Shown here one piece after another: positions 5,164 to 9,833 of a stretch of 13,832 nt of DNA. The notes under the pieces are model-generated. The model was given only the letters and a program-made list of their open reading frames with translations, was not told the DNA's origin and made no database searches. A program made the translations under genes and the position numbers. The DNA lies in the NCBI GenBank assembly GCA_023424585.1, contig JAFADT010000029.1:1-13832 (forward strand). Direction: 5' to 3'. Numbering within the stretch: position 1 is the first letter of the stretch; each line of letters opens with the position of its first letter. The DNA is from Pseudomonadota bacterium (GTDB taxonomy: Bacteria > Myxococcota > Myxococcia > Myxococcales > Myxococcaceae).

Positions 5164-6654
5164 GTGCGCGTGTCCTTTGTTCGGTTACCCGAGAGCGTCG
5201 TCCCGTGTCGCAACCTCGTGGGCGGAGAGTGGCTGTCTCCGACGGAGGGTCCCTCGCAGGAGGTCCGCAGTCCCTACACCGGCGGGCTCATCGGCCGGGT
5301 GCCGCTGACCACCGCCGCGGGGGTCGCCCGGGCCGTGGAGGCCGCGAAGGCCGCCGCGCAGGGCTGGCGCGTCACCCCCCTGCGCGAGCGCACCCAGCTC
5401 CTGCAACGCTTCCGCGCGCTGCTCGAAGCAAACCTGGAGCGCCTCGCGCACCTGGCCGCGAGCGAATCCGGCAAGACGGTGGCGGAGGGCCGCGCGGGGC
5501 TGCTCAAGGGCCTGGAGGTCTGTGACTTCGCGCTGTCGCTCCAGAACCTGGACAGCGGCGCGCACCTGGAGGTGAGCCGGGGCATCACCTGTGAATACCG
5601 CCGCGAGCCCCTGGGCGTCGTCGCCGGCATCACGCCGTTCAACTTCCCCGCGATGGTGCCCCTGTGGCTGTTCCCCATCGCCGTCACGGTGGGCAACGCC
5701 TTCATCCTCAAGCCGTCGGAGAAGGTGCCGCTCACCGCGACCGCGCTGGGCGAGCTGATGGTGGAGGCGGGCTATCCGCCCGGCGTCTTCTCCGTGGTGC
5801 ACGGCGCGAAGGCCGCGGTGGACGCGCTCCTGGAGCACCCGGACGTGAAGGCCGTGGCCTTCGTGGGCTCGTCCCCCGTCGCGCGGCACGTCTACGTGGA
5901 GGGCAGCCGCCACGGCAAGCGCGTGCTGGCGCTGGGCGGCGCGAAGAACCACCTCATCGTCGCGCCGGACGCGGATCCGGACCTCACGCCGCAGGCGGTG
6001 GTGGACTCGTTCACGGGCTGCGCGGGCCAGCGCTGCATGGCGGCCAGCGTGCTGCTCGCGGTGGGGGACGTGCAGCCGCTGGTGGACGACATCGTCCGTC
6101 GCGCGGCCCGCCTGGAGGTCGGCCCGGGCATGGGCGCGCTCATCGACCGGGGCGCGGTGGACCGGCTGGAGACGGCCATCGCGAAGGCCCAGGCGGACGG
6201 GGCGCGCGTGCTGCTGGACGGGCGCGGCAGGCGGCCCGCGGGCGAGGCCTACGCGAACGGCCACTGGCTGGGCCCCACGGTGCTGGACGGCGTGCGCCCG
6301 GACATGGAGGCCGCGCGGCGCGAGCTGTTCGGCCCGGTGCTGTCCATCGTGCGGGTGCCCACGCTGTCGGCGGCGCTCGCCGTGGAGAACGCGTCGCCCT
6401 ATGGCAACGCGGCGTCCATCTTCACCACCAGCGGCGCGGTGGCGCAGACGGTGGTGGAGGGCGCGAAGGCCGGCATGGTGGGCGTGAACGTGGGCGTGCC
6501 GGTGCCGCGCGAGCCCTTCTCCTTCGGCGGTACGGGCGACTCGAAGTTCGGCCACGGCGACGTCACTGGACCGTCGAGCCTCGACTTCTGGAGCCAGCTC
6601 AAGAAGGTGACCCGCAAGTGGTCCGCGCGCACCGACGGCTCGTGGATGAGCTGA
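5164..6654 (+). CDS. mmsA: CoA-acylating methylmalonate/malonate semialdehyde dehydrogenase
   Basis: A 496-residue cytoplasmic aldehyde dehydrogenase of the MmsA subfamily. It oxidises methylmalonate or malonate semialdehyde with NAD+ and CoA to propionyl-CoA or acetyl-CoA plus CO2. Visible features are Asn160 in TPFNFPA, Lys183 in LKPSE for the cofactor, and catalytic Cys291 in GCAGQRCMA. The segment GGAKNH at 258-263 has Asn where ordinary aldehyde dehydrogenases have the general-base Glu, a hallmark of this subfamily. The ending (NVGVPVPREPFSFGG, then SKFG.GD.TG and FW...KKVTRKW) is also diagnostic. The start is a GTG at 5164 after a G-rich stretch; GTG 5170 is equally possible. The urc1-like gene begins 65 bp downstream. 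In valine or inositol breakdown mmsA sits with other genes; here the likely substrate is malonate semialdehyde released from uracil, which is inference. Confidence 0.93.
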   Translation: MRVSFVRLPESVVPCRNLVGGEWLSPTEGPSQEVRSPYTGGLIGRVPLTTAAGVARAVEAAKAAAQGWRVTPLRERTQLLQRFRALLEANLERLAHLAASESGKTVAEGRAGLLKGLEVCDFALSLQNLDSGAHLEVSRGITCEYRREPLGVVAGITPFNFPAMVPLWLFPIAVTVGNAFILKPSEKVPLTATALGELMVEAGYPPGVFSVVHGAKAAVDALLEHPDVKAVAFVGSSPVARHVYVEGSRHGKRVLALGGAKNHLIVAPDADPDLTPQAVVDSFTGCAGQRCMAASVLLAVGDVQPLVDDIVRRAARLEVGPGMGALIDRGAVDRLETAIAKAQADGARVLLDGRGRRPAGEAYANGHWLGPTVLDGVRPDMEAARRELFGPVLSIVRVPTLSAALAVENASPYGNAASIFTTSGAVAQTVVEGAKAGMVGVNVGVPVPREPFSFGGTGDSKFGHGDVTGPSSLDFWSQLKKVTRKWSARTDGSWMS

Positions 6655-6704
6655 CGTCGCGGCTTCCCCCATTCCCAGACATCTGCATTTCCCGCGCGCC
6701 CCTC

Positions 6705-6711
6705 AAGGAGG
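6705..6711 (+). promoter_or_regulatory. Strong ribosome binding site deciding the urc1 start
   Basis: AAGGAGG lies 8 bp before the ATG at 6720. It fixes that ATG as the start although the frame stays open more than 1 kb upstream, inside mmsA. Confidence 0.85.
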
Positions 6712-6719
6712 GTGCACCC

Positions 6720-7973
6720 ATGGCTGACAAGAAGCCCGTGAATCACATCCGCCTCACCTCCCACCCCGACGGACAGGCCCCCGGCGTCCCCCTGCGCTGG
6801 GGCGAGTCCGAGCCGCTGCGCCGCGGCCCGGTGGTGGCCACGCTCTCCGACCCCGCGAACCGCAACGTCATCGGCACGCACTCGGGCGCGTACTCCATCT
6901 ACCGCGCGCTGGCGGTGTCCGCGGGCAGGCTGCCGCAGGACCACAAGGCGGACCTGACCAACACCTCGCCCGCGGCGCAGGTGGGGCCGCATCCGGCGTG
7001 GAGCGACCCCAGGCGCATCGTGTCGCTGGACCCCTGGGGCGCGGTGGCGTCGCAGGTGTTCCGCGCCTACGCCGAGCAGGGCGTGGACTACCGGCCCACC
7101 ATCGCCGTCACCCGGGCCCACATCAACATGCCGGAGGTGCGCGAGGCCATCACCGCCGGCCGCCTCAAGGTGGACGGCGACCTCGTCGCGTCCAACGGCG
7201 ACGTGAAGGTGGTGAAGGCCGCGGTGGAGCCCGTCTGGTACCTGCCCGGCATCGCCGAGCGCTTCGGCCTCACGGAGGGCGCGCTGCGCCGGGGCCTCTT
7301 CGAGCACACCGGCGGCATGTACCCGGAGCTCATCACCCGCCCGGACCTGCATGTCTTCCTGCCGCCCATCGGCGGGCTGTCGCTGTATGTGTTTGGGAAC
7401 ATCTCCGCGCTGGCGGACAGGGACGTGCCGCTGGCGGCGCGCGTGCATGACGAGTGCAACGGCTCGGACGTCTTCGGCAGCGACATCTGCACCTGCCGGC
7501 CCTACCTGGTGCACGGCATCGAGGAGTGCGTGCGGATGGCGCAGCAGGGCGGGGTGGGGCTCATCGTCTACCACCGCAAGGAGGGCCGCGCGCTGGGCGA
7601 GGTGACCAAGTTCCTGGTCTACAACGCGCGCAAGCGCCAGGAGGGCGGCGACTCCGCGGCCACGTACTTCCACCGCACGGAGTGCGTGGCGGGCGTGCAG
7701 GACATGCGCTTCCAGGAGCTGATGCCGGACGTGCTGCACTGGCTGGGCATCACGCGCATCCACCGCTTCATCTCCATGAGCGACATGAAGCACGACGCCA
7801 TCGTGCGCTCGGGCATCGAGATCCTCGAGCGCGTCCCCATCCCGGACGGCCTGATTCCGGCGGACGCGAAGGTGGAGATGGAGGCGAAGAAGGCCGCGGG
7901 CTACTTCACGCGAGGGCCGGTGGCGGACGCGGGGGCGCTGGCGCAGGTGAAGGGACGGGACCTCGATGCTTGA
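6720..7973 (+). CDS. urc1: Urc1-like GTP cyclohydrolase II homologue, predicted uracil catabolism enzyme
   Basis: A 417-residue protein about twice the length of RibA. Residues 1-205 are an N-terminal extension absent from RibA. Residues 208-375 are the GTP cyclohydrolase II fold. The zinc ligands are intact: Cys246, Cys257 and Cys259 in the C-x10-C-x-C spacing of RibA. The motif YHRKEGRALG (284-293) matches RibA's Tyr-x-Arg-x-Glu-Gly-Arg, and Asp328-x-Arg330 matches RibA's catalytic Asp-x-Arg. The Asp-Thr-x-Glu-Ala-Asn segment that precedes it in RibA is replaced by an aromatic/Cys stretch. In the yeast URC pathway a homologue of this type is needed to open the uracil ring at the nucleotide level. 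The DUF1688 neighbour, which begins 8 bp before this gene ends, and the upp gene support that assignment over riboflavin synthesis. No other riboflavin gene is present. Confidence 0.85.
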   Translation: MADKKPVNHIRLTSHPDGQAPGVPLRWGESEPLRRGPVVATLSDPANRNVIGTHSGAYSIYRALAVSAGRLPQDHKADLTNTSPAAQVGPHPAWSDPRRIVSLDPWGAVASQVFRAYAEQGVDYRPTIAVTRAHINMPEVREAITAGRLKVDGDLVASNGDVKVVKAAVEPVWYLPGIAERFGLTEGALRRGLFEHTGGMYPELITRPDLHVFLPPIGGLSLYVFGNISALADRDVPLAARVHDECNGSDVFGSDICTCRPYLVHGIEECVRMAQQGGVGLIVYHRKEGRALGEVTKFLVYNARKRQEGGDSAATYFHRTECVAGVQDMRFQELMPDVLHWLGITRIHRFISMSDMKHDAIVRSGIEILERVPIPDGLIPADAKVEMEAKKAAGYFTRGPVADAGALAQVKGRDLDA

Positions 7974-9174: not shown

Positions 9175-9184
9175 AACACAATCC

Positions 9185-9190
9185 AGGAGG
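9185..9190 (+). promoter_or_regulatory. Ribosome binding site of upp
   Basis: AGGAGG ends 7 bp before the ATG at 9198, in the 23-bp gap after the DUF1688 gene. It confirms the start and shows that upp is translated from its own site. Confidence 0.8.
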
Positions 9191-9197
9191 ACGACGC

Positions 9198-9833
9198 ATG
9201 GACTTCCCGAACTGCACGGTGGTGGATCACCCGCTGGTGAAGCACAAGCTGACGGTGATGCGCAGGACGGACACGAGCACGGCGTCCTTCCGGGCGCTGC
9301 TGGAGGAGATCTCCCTCCTGCTCGGGTACGAGGCGCTGCGAGACCTGAAGCTGCGCGAGGAGCAGATCGAGACGCCCATGGCCCGCACCACGGGCTGGGC
9401 GCTGGACGGCAAGAAGCTGGTGCTGGTGCCCATCCTGAGAGCGGGGCAGGGCATCCTGGACGGCCTCCTGCAACTGGTGCCCTCCGCGCGCGTGGGCCAC
9501 ATCGGCCTGTACCGGGACCCGGAGTCGCTGGGCGCCGTGGAGTACTACTACCGCGTGCCCTCCAACCTGGAGGACCGGGACGTCATCGTCTGTGACCCGA
9601 TGCTCGCGACGGGCAACTCCGCGGTGGCGGCGCTCCAGCGCGTGAAGCGGAGCCGCCCGGGCTCCCTGCGCTTCGTGTGTCTGCTCGCGTGCCCGGAGGG
9701 CCTGCTGAACCTGCGCGAGCACCACCCCGACGTGCGCGTCTTCACCGCCGCCATCGACGAGAAGCTGGACGCGCACGGCTACATCCTGCCCGGCCTGGGC
9801 GACGCGGGAGACCGCCTCTTCGGCACGAAGTAG
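9198..9833 (+). CDS. upp: Uracil phosphoribosyltransferase
   Basis: A 211-residue enzyme of the usual length that joins uracil and PRPP to make UMP and pyrophosphate. The PRPP loop is VIVCDPMLATGNS at 129-141. The Arg-Ala-Gly of the family is at 81-83, and the uracil-binding end GYILPGLGDAGDRLFGTK closes the protein at 194-211, all as in bacterial Upp. It is the last gene of the cluster and most likely shares its transcript. It may serve general salvage, but its place behind the urc1- and urc4-like genes matches the yeast pathway, where a dedicated uracil phosphoribosyltransferase (Urc6) performs the first step. A weak hairpin (GGCCC 9833-9837, GGGCC 9844-9848) begins at the stop codon and might end the transcript. 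Confidence 0.95.
   Translation: MDFPNCTVVDHPLVKHKLTVMRRTDTSTASFRALLEEISLLLGYEALRDLKLREEQIETPMARTTGWALDGKKLVLVPILRAGQGILDGLLQLVPSARVGHIGLYRDPESLGAVEYYYRVPSNLEDRDVIVCDPMLATGNSAVAALQRVKRSRPGSLRFVCLLACPEGLLNLREHHPDVRVFTAAIDEKLDAHGYILPGLGDAGDRLFGTK

Follow-up and report, generated by a model that had tools for sequence, protein, structure and literature searches.

Can a myxobacterium take the pyrimidine ring of uracil apart and keep its carbon as acetyl-coenzyme A (acetyl-CoA)? The question is raised by four genes, mmsA, urc1, urc4 (DUF1688) and upp, that lie head to tail on the + strand at 5164-9833 of a 13,832-nucleotide (nt) stretch of DNA from a member of the Myxococcaceae (contig JAFADT010000029.1 of assembly GCA_023424585.1; the whole stretch is called the window below). 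We propose that they form a pyrimidine catabolic operon of the URC (uracil catabolism) type with a built-in carbon outlet, and we put the probability of this reading at roughly three in four. With somewhat less confidence, we favor a fuller proposal: DUF1688/Urc4 would be an N-glycosidase of the Qng1 superfamily recruited from nucleotide salvage to act on ribosylurea-5'-phosphate, and members of the home family would have swapped the whole reductive pyrimidine pathway for URC, both pathways using a special malonic-semialdehyde dehydrogenase of the Lys type. Uracil would then yield acetyl-CoA, ribose-5-phosphate and urea, with nothing lost as 3-hydroxypropionate and no need of a transaminase. 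The pathway itself is known. Our additions are a relationship of Urc4 to Qng1 that comes with two candidate residues, an exchange between URC and the reductive route, and an MmsA type common to both.

The steps of the scheme would be as follows. Upp would join uracil to phosphoribosyl pyrophosphate to give uridine monophosphate (UMP), the reaction of its family, and ordinary kinases would phosphorylate UMP further. Urc1 would open the pyrimidine ring in the zinc-dependent manner of GTP cyclohydrolase II. The C4-C5-C6 part would be released as malonic semialdehyde, and the N1-C2-N3 part would stay on the sugar as ribosylurea, drawn here tentatively as the 5'-phosphate. Urc4 would hydrolyse the N-ribosyl bond through Lys272 and Glu303, giving urea and ribose-5-phosphate, and a urease encoded elsewhere would turn the urea into ammonia. 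MmsA would convert malonic semialdehyde, NAD+ and CoA to acetyl-CoA and CO2.

Gene content and conservation of the operon

We scored the four products against family profiles. Urc1 reached 767.4 bits with NF005536 (cut-off 403), 276.1 bits with GTP_CH_N and 52.7 bits with GTP_cyclohydro2 (scans run from 6702, six codons ahead of the start); it has the Urc1-type N-terminal domain of the URC gene set (GTP_CH_N, NF005536). Urc4 scored 493.8 bits with PF07958 (cut-off 25) and Upp 265.5 bits with TIGR01091 (cut-off 208.35). MmsA scored 416.3 bits with Pfam Aldedh and passed the methylmalonate-semialdehyde dehydrogenase (MMSDH) profile TIGR01722 by a modest margin (498.5 bits, cut-off 448.5). Apart from MmsA, the scores lie well over their cut-offs, and matches of this strength do not arise by chance. 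A gap of 65 nt separates mmsA from urc1, the end of urc1 runs 8 nt into urc4 (7966-7973), and upp follows urc4 after 23 nt; the four genes may well be cotranscribed. Family scores and coordinates agree with the place, strand and overlap that a preliminary description of this DNA had assigned to the genes.

Genome-level statements below concern relatives of the window organism: 59 relatives, including 16 genomes of the home genus (taken as Corallococcus, its family being taken as Myxococcaceae in the GTDB sense), and a wider survey of 193 Myxococcota genomes, 65 with and 128 without a DUF1688 match. By its nearest proteins the window belongs to Corallococcus; its Urc4 and the Urc4 of Corallococcus sp. 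RDP092CA are 100% identical. DUF1688 occurred in 21 of the 59 relatives and in all 16 genomes of the home genus. Outside the myxobacteria we sampled 84 loci, made up of the best 80 of at least 562 on actinobacterial and proteobacterial contigs and of four plasmid records taken from the 13 with a match. Gene triads were counted by tblastn, and a simple open reading frame (ORF) caller based on GC content at third codon positions missed some genes. Among the best 80 of at least 562 loci, urc1 and urc4 stood in this order in 79 and the triad urc1-urc4-upp was present in 75; the four loci lacking only upp lie on short contigs, and L102 lacks urc1, its urc4 lying near the contig start. All four plasmid records had the triad, so that with upp included it was found at 79 of the 84 non-myxobacterial loci, and it was found in each of 20 myxobacterial regions hand-picked among the 65 DUF1688 genomes. 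The preliminary description had asked whether this gene order recurs in other bacteria; it does, and family scores, conserved order and the genomes of relatives together support its URC reading of the operon. The triad is widespread and already described in print, and is not new.

Proposed ring opening by Urc1

Which nucleotide might Urc1 open? Urc1 matched PDB entry 7ej3 with an E value of 5.7e-184, and 7ej3 and 7eev are 66-67% identical to it over 393-400 columns. Both molecules are named GTP cyclohydrolase II, but the entries are titled 'UTP cyclohydrolase'; the title is the depositors' own and is the sole source of the substrate claim. A fold search with a Urc1 model was used only to obtain the titles of these two close relatives. 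Cys246, Cys257, Cys259, Tyr301 and Arg330 of Urc1 align with C54, C65, C67, Y105 and R128 of RibA, which we take to be the zinc cysteines and the catalytic Tyr and Arg, and all five stand in invariant columns of a 21-sequence alignment. We consider uridine triphosphate (UTP) a more likely substrate than UMP. If the chemistry of GTP cyclohydrolase II is kept, UTP would give pyrophosphate and a ring-opened 5'-monophosphate, as a Qng1-like enzyme would expect.

The 'UTP cyclohydrolase' titles would also suit a nucleotide-level route, in which the cell breaks down excess UTP, or uridylate from RNA such as that of digested prey, and Upp just recycles leaked uracil, a reading that overlaps with ours. 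It would accord with such a route that none of the 10 window ORFs scanned (Pfam, NCBIfam) is a uracil permease or nucleoside transporter. The regular presence of upp in the triad argues against it, as do the genes that join the cluster elsewhere: an amidohydrolase lies beside the urc genes in at least 29 of the 84 non-myxobacterial loci, and at least 22 hold a BMP-type ABC transporter, counted where two or more of its four clusters occur; both counts are lower bounds. All three amidohydrolases tested were cytosine deaminases (786-807 bits, cut-off 438). These neighbors point to external bases or nucleosides, and we think a purely nucleotide-level route unlikely, though still deserving of attention.

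Urc4 as an apparent remote relative of Qng1

The preferred scheme needs an enzyme that frees urea from the sugar. The AlphaFold model of Urc4 (predicted local distance difference test, pLDDT, 93) matched the Qng1 fold over 303-315 residues at 18-20% identity (Foldseek, VIA-align). Lys272 and Glu303 of Urc4 are invariant in 47 of 47 sequences. Qng1 entries carry mutations at K199 and D231; Lys272 would pair with Lys199 (Lys kept) and Glu303 with Asp231 (Glu for Asp), a proposed pairing that comes from a weak-scoring profile alignment and not from superposed coordinates. Judged from the model, Urc4 appears to be a remote relative of Qng1 that shares its fold and two key positions with base-cleaving nucleotide enzymes. 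In the excerpts available to us, Urc4 of yeasts is described as a putative ribosyl-urea degrading enzyme (PMC8709784) and is given a ribosylurea-degrading role (PMC7530994).

Sequence searches gave a sparser picture. Among 30 other DUF1688 proteins (single scans), 11 matched Q_salvage (PF10343, cut-off 25 bits) at E of at most 1; L099 alone passed the cut-off (27.1 bits), and L125 scored 23.8 bits. Searches of PDB sequences with Urc4 and with its profile returned nothing significant, in contrast to the fold search and the Q_salvage profile. True Qng1 was over the cut-off in one of the 193 Myxococcota; a scan of 39 relatives gave none, the controls being equally silent. One true Qng1 gene, L139 (G166; Archangium lipolyticum by P0121), seems to have its reading frame broken close to the 3' end. 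The literature examined that mentions DUF1688, available in part, held no link to Qng1, and an earlier link in print is quite possible.

Might Urc4 keep the Qng1 fold and yet carry out other chemistry on the ring-opened nucleotide, a separate enzyme releasing the urea? A shared fold is no proof of function, and the identity is low; but K199 and D231 of Qng1 have proposed counterparts in Urc4 that are invariant, and the ribosylurea-degrading role is already in print for yeasts, at least in the excerpts cited above. We therefore regard this possibility as improbable. For the N-ribosidase role that we prefer, the fold and the two invariant residues make a direct enzyme assay of Urc4 possible. There are at least 7997 DUF1688-like proteins, and with a mechanism for Urc4, many genes that at present carry the label GTP cyclohydrolase II or unknown would receive a new annotation.

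MmsA and the probable fate of the C3 unit

MmsA has Cys291 in the motif CAGQRC. It carries Lys115 where six other MMSDHs carry Arg, presumably the Arg of the RGLEV motif (R124), and so is a TIGR01722 member with Lys in place of that Arg. All 37 rows of the MmsA branch that can be read have this Lys (two truncated rows are unreadable), and all six other MMSDHs have Arg. An IQ-TREE analysis of 25 MmsA rows split 19 of them from the six other MMSDHs with support of 100/100, and the branch holding the MmsA of the urc-operon type had support of 100/99. The 19 rows come from 11 urc operons, four reductive clusters and four regions with neither adjoining in the fetched stretch (G019, G020, G030, G034); the regions of G017, G032, G034 and G020 were added because of their MMSDH match and are not an unbiased sample. 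Fifteen of the 16 home-genus genomes have exactly one MMSDH over the cut-off, on the urc contig and at urc distance; in G016, the remaining one, a contig end truncates the best match.

In some relatives, sister genes of mmsA lie near those of a second pyrimidine route, the reductive one. On one strand, G017 (L194) has a CN-hydrolase taken as beta-ureidopropionase, dihydropyrimidinase, MmsA, a class III aminotransferase, PreT and PreA. The same six genes lie near by in G151 (L150); in the fetched stretches, G032 (L195) has them without PreA, and G163 (L159) has them without the aminotransferase. The reductive route yields beta-alanine, from which a transaminase makes malonic semialdehyde. The URC route should give malonic semialdehyde directly. 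The best genomic argument that malonic semialdehyde is the C3 product, and that the end is acetyl-CoA and not 3-hydroxypropionate, is that the urc operon has MmsA without a transaminase; the presence of mmsA beside both pyrimidine routes in one family points to the same C3 product.

How general would this outlet be? mmsA lies directly upstream of urc1 in 19 of the 20 myxobacterial regions, the exception (L126) coming from another family, and in none of the 78 non-myxobacterial loci that could be tested, those with at least 1500 nt before urc1. The MmsA outlet therefore cannot be general, and mmsA is, on the loci compared, an addition of the home family. The same 78 loci would suit the idea that C3 is reduced to 3-hydroxypropionate, the C3 product reported for yeast URC in the available parts of PMC7530994 and PMC3869809, while MmsA serves valine or other semialdehyde metabolism. 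This is improbable for the window: 15 of 16 genus genomes have no other MMSDH over the cut-off than this MmsA type, in the window it adjoins urc1, and the sister branch, with Lys for Arg throughout its readable rows, has members within or close to gene sets of the reductive pyrimidine route. We thus retain acetyl-CoA as the probable end. The C3 semialdehyde and the ribosylurea-type product anticipated in the preliminary description fit the MmsA and Qng1-fold evidence; that account had no place for urease, for UTP as a possible substrate or for mmsA as an addition of the home family, and needs amending in these respects.

Proposed exchange with the reductive pathway, and urea use

At the genome level, DUF1688 is seldom found together with the reductive pathway and is associated with urease. 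Dihydropyrimidinase (TIGR02033) passed the cut-off in 4 of the 65 DUF1688 genomes versus 66 of the 128 others (Fisher 5e-11); within the home family the figures were 3 of 63 versus 22 of 32. Both patterns occur inside a single genus, with DUF1688 only in three species, dihydropyrimidinase only in three, and neither in one (85% complete). None of the 21 DUF1688-bearing genomes among the 59 relatives had dihydropyrimidinase over the cut-off. RutA was over the cut-off in none of the 59, and we rejected it as their uracil route; uracil breakdown by the Rut or reductive pathway instead, raised at the outset as an alternative, was thus not seen in close kin. The urease alpha subunit passed the cut-off in 56 of the 65 DUF1688 genomes versus 29 of the 128 others, and in 15 of the 16 home-genus genomes. 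Urea carboxylase was rejected as the urea route: it was over the cut-off in 0 of 59 relatives, and the best matches listed span about the first third of the profile.

As a separate observation, G030 (L184/L193) and G019 (L182/L198) have a URC-type mmsA plus dihydropyrimidinase and may be relics of pathway exchange; the G019 assembly is fragmented.

Several results weigh against the URC scheme set out above. For Urc4, alignment of the DUF1688 and Qng1 alignments by hhalign gave a probability of 1.4% and an E value of 0.035, both alignments being shallow; the window Urc4 had no match to Q_salvage at E of at most 1, and PF07958 matched none of 30 Qng1 proteins. The Urc1 structure model is poor (pLDDT 54). 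Among the genomes surveyed, four of the 193 have both DUF1688 and dihydropyrimidinase (G118, G120 and G126 of genus g16, and G086), and nine of the 65 DUF1688 genomes have no urease match over the cut-off. The P values of the genome associations are descriptive only, related genomes not being independent and most DUF1688 genomes coming from few genera. For MmsA, just 2 of 14 dihydropyrimidinase regions (picked out of 70 genomes) have it within the fetched stretch, some of the rest show a remote match to an aminotransferase (30-31% identity) and no MmsA, and G019 and G030 keep a URC-type mmsA without a DUF1688 match; the 78 loci without mmsA before urc1 count on this side as well. Finally, the literature examined, available in part, holds no growth or enzyme test for the organism and no biochemical data on these proteins.

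A spare riboflavin GTP cyclohydrolase II, in an operon for salvage and riboflavin synthesis, is what the NCBIfam name of NF005536 (GTP cyclohydrolase II) and the retained RibA zinc and catalytic residues might suggest, but Urc1 scores far under the RibA cut-off (TIGR00505, 51.8 bits versus 205.85) and RibA is over it in all 59 relatives, and therefore urc1 is not the riboflavin gene; the linked DUF1688 is not known to have a place in riboflavin synthesis, and we reject this role as highly implausible.

Other features of the window

The coordinates are collected in Table 1. The start of urc1 is most likely the ATG at 6720, behind AAGGAGG, and that of mmsA is uncertain between GTG 5164 and GTG 5170. 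Both urc1 and upp are preceded by good Shine-Dalgarno sites.

Table 1. Features of the urc locus, in window coordinates.
Feature	Position	Strand	Basis
mmsA, CoA-acylating (methyl)malonate-semialdehyde dehydrogenase, 496 aa from GTG 5164	5164..6654	+	TIGR01722
Shine-Dalgarno-like AAGGAGG ahead of urc1	6705..6711	+	sequence
urc1, GTP-cyclohydrolase-II-like predicted ring-opening enzyme, 417 aa, ATG	6720..7973	+	NF005536
urc4 (DUF1688), predicted ribosylurea-5'-phosphate N-ribosidase, Qng1 fold, 402 aa	7966..9174	+	PF07958, AlphaFold, Foldseek, VIA-align
Codon of Urc4 Lys272, proposed counterpart of Qng1 Lys199	8779..8781	+	invariance, motif alignment
Codon of Urc4 Glu303, proposed counterpart of Qng1 Asp231	8872..8874	+	invariance, motif alignment
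Shine-Dalgarno-like AGGAGG ahead of upp	9185..9190	+	sequence
upp, uracil phosphoribosyltransferase, 211 aa	9198..9833	+	TIGR01091
Perfect inverted repeat AAACGTT-N10-AACGTTT, then TT	9896..9919	+	sequence

The inverted repeat behind upp is the single match of its pattern in the window and occurred in none of 200 shuffles (RNA fold z -2.0). It is absent from the list of the terminator scan; it may possibly be a terminator or an operator of the operon. We found no sigma-70-type promoter in 4950-10050, and the window has no tRNA genes and no Rfam families at gathering score.

The neighboring ORFs lie on the same strand. A 146-aa ORF upstream of mmsA (4549-4989, +) had no Pfam or NCBIfam match at E of at most 0.001. 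The product of 3136-4368 (+) is polynucleotide kinase-phosphatase-like and matches the bacterial Pnkp profile (TIGR04075, 851 positions; 554.8 bits, cut-off 750) over positions 1-420 only; presumably it has the kinase and phosphatase without the ligase part. At 2167-2324 lie two 79-nt direct repeats, 81% identical, each with a palindromic ACCTGTCCGACAG-type sequence; 25-nt arms form perfect inverted copies, and the whole resembles an intergenic element of the REP (repetitive extragenic palindromic) type. A GH123-like protein with a repetitive Pro/Thr-rich stretch is encoded at 97-2118 (+), and we take its C-terminal tail to resemble a surface-sorting signal. Downstream are a golvesin C-terminal domain protein (9945-11375, +; 86 bits) and a PGA_cap protein (12109-13506, +; 229 bits) that also weakly matches the MslH family of lasso-peptide epimerases (66 bits, cut-off 700).

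Comparison with known systems

The closest described system is the URC pathway of Lachancea (Saccharomyces) kluyveri and the urg1-urg2-urg3 genes of S. pombe, clustered genes of three core families according to the available parts of PMC2174524 and PMC3869809. The window shares with it a GTP-cyclohydrolase-II-like Urc1/Urg1, a DUF1688 Urc4/Urg3 and a uracil phosphoribosyltransferase. It differs in having its genes on one strand, with an 8-nt overlap and an added mmsA. The kin of the window organism would use urease for urea, whereas the yeast scheme, as far as our sources give it, has urea amidolyase; the predicted C3 end is acetyl-CoA rather than 3-hydroxypropionate.

The urc1-urc4-upp clusters of Actinobacteria and of Beta-, Alpha- and Gammaproteobacteria have the order and orientation of the window at 79 of 84 loci, with 65-69% identity in Urc1 and 46-56% in Urc4. 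They lack an mmsA directly before urc1, and some add a BMP-type ABC transporter or an amidohydrolase. The 'UTP cyclohydrolase' of 7eev/7ej3 comes from a different source protein than the window Urc1.

Qng1 (DUF2419), the queuosine-5'-monophosphate N-glycosylase (PDB 7u91, 7ugk, 7ulc), has the predicted fold in common with Urc4, and probably a Lys and an acidic residue at matching places. Urc4 differs in its Glu for Asp, its 402-residue chain (315-344 in Qng1), its low identity and its pyrimidine-catabolic neighbors. In the reductive pyrimidine operon of relatives (L194, L150), a sister MmsA could likewise take the C3 end to acetyl-CoA; that operon uses other ring chemistry, by way of beta-alanine, and needs a transaminase, whereas the urc operon has none.

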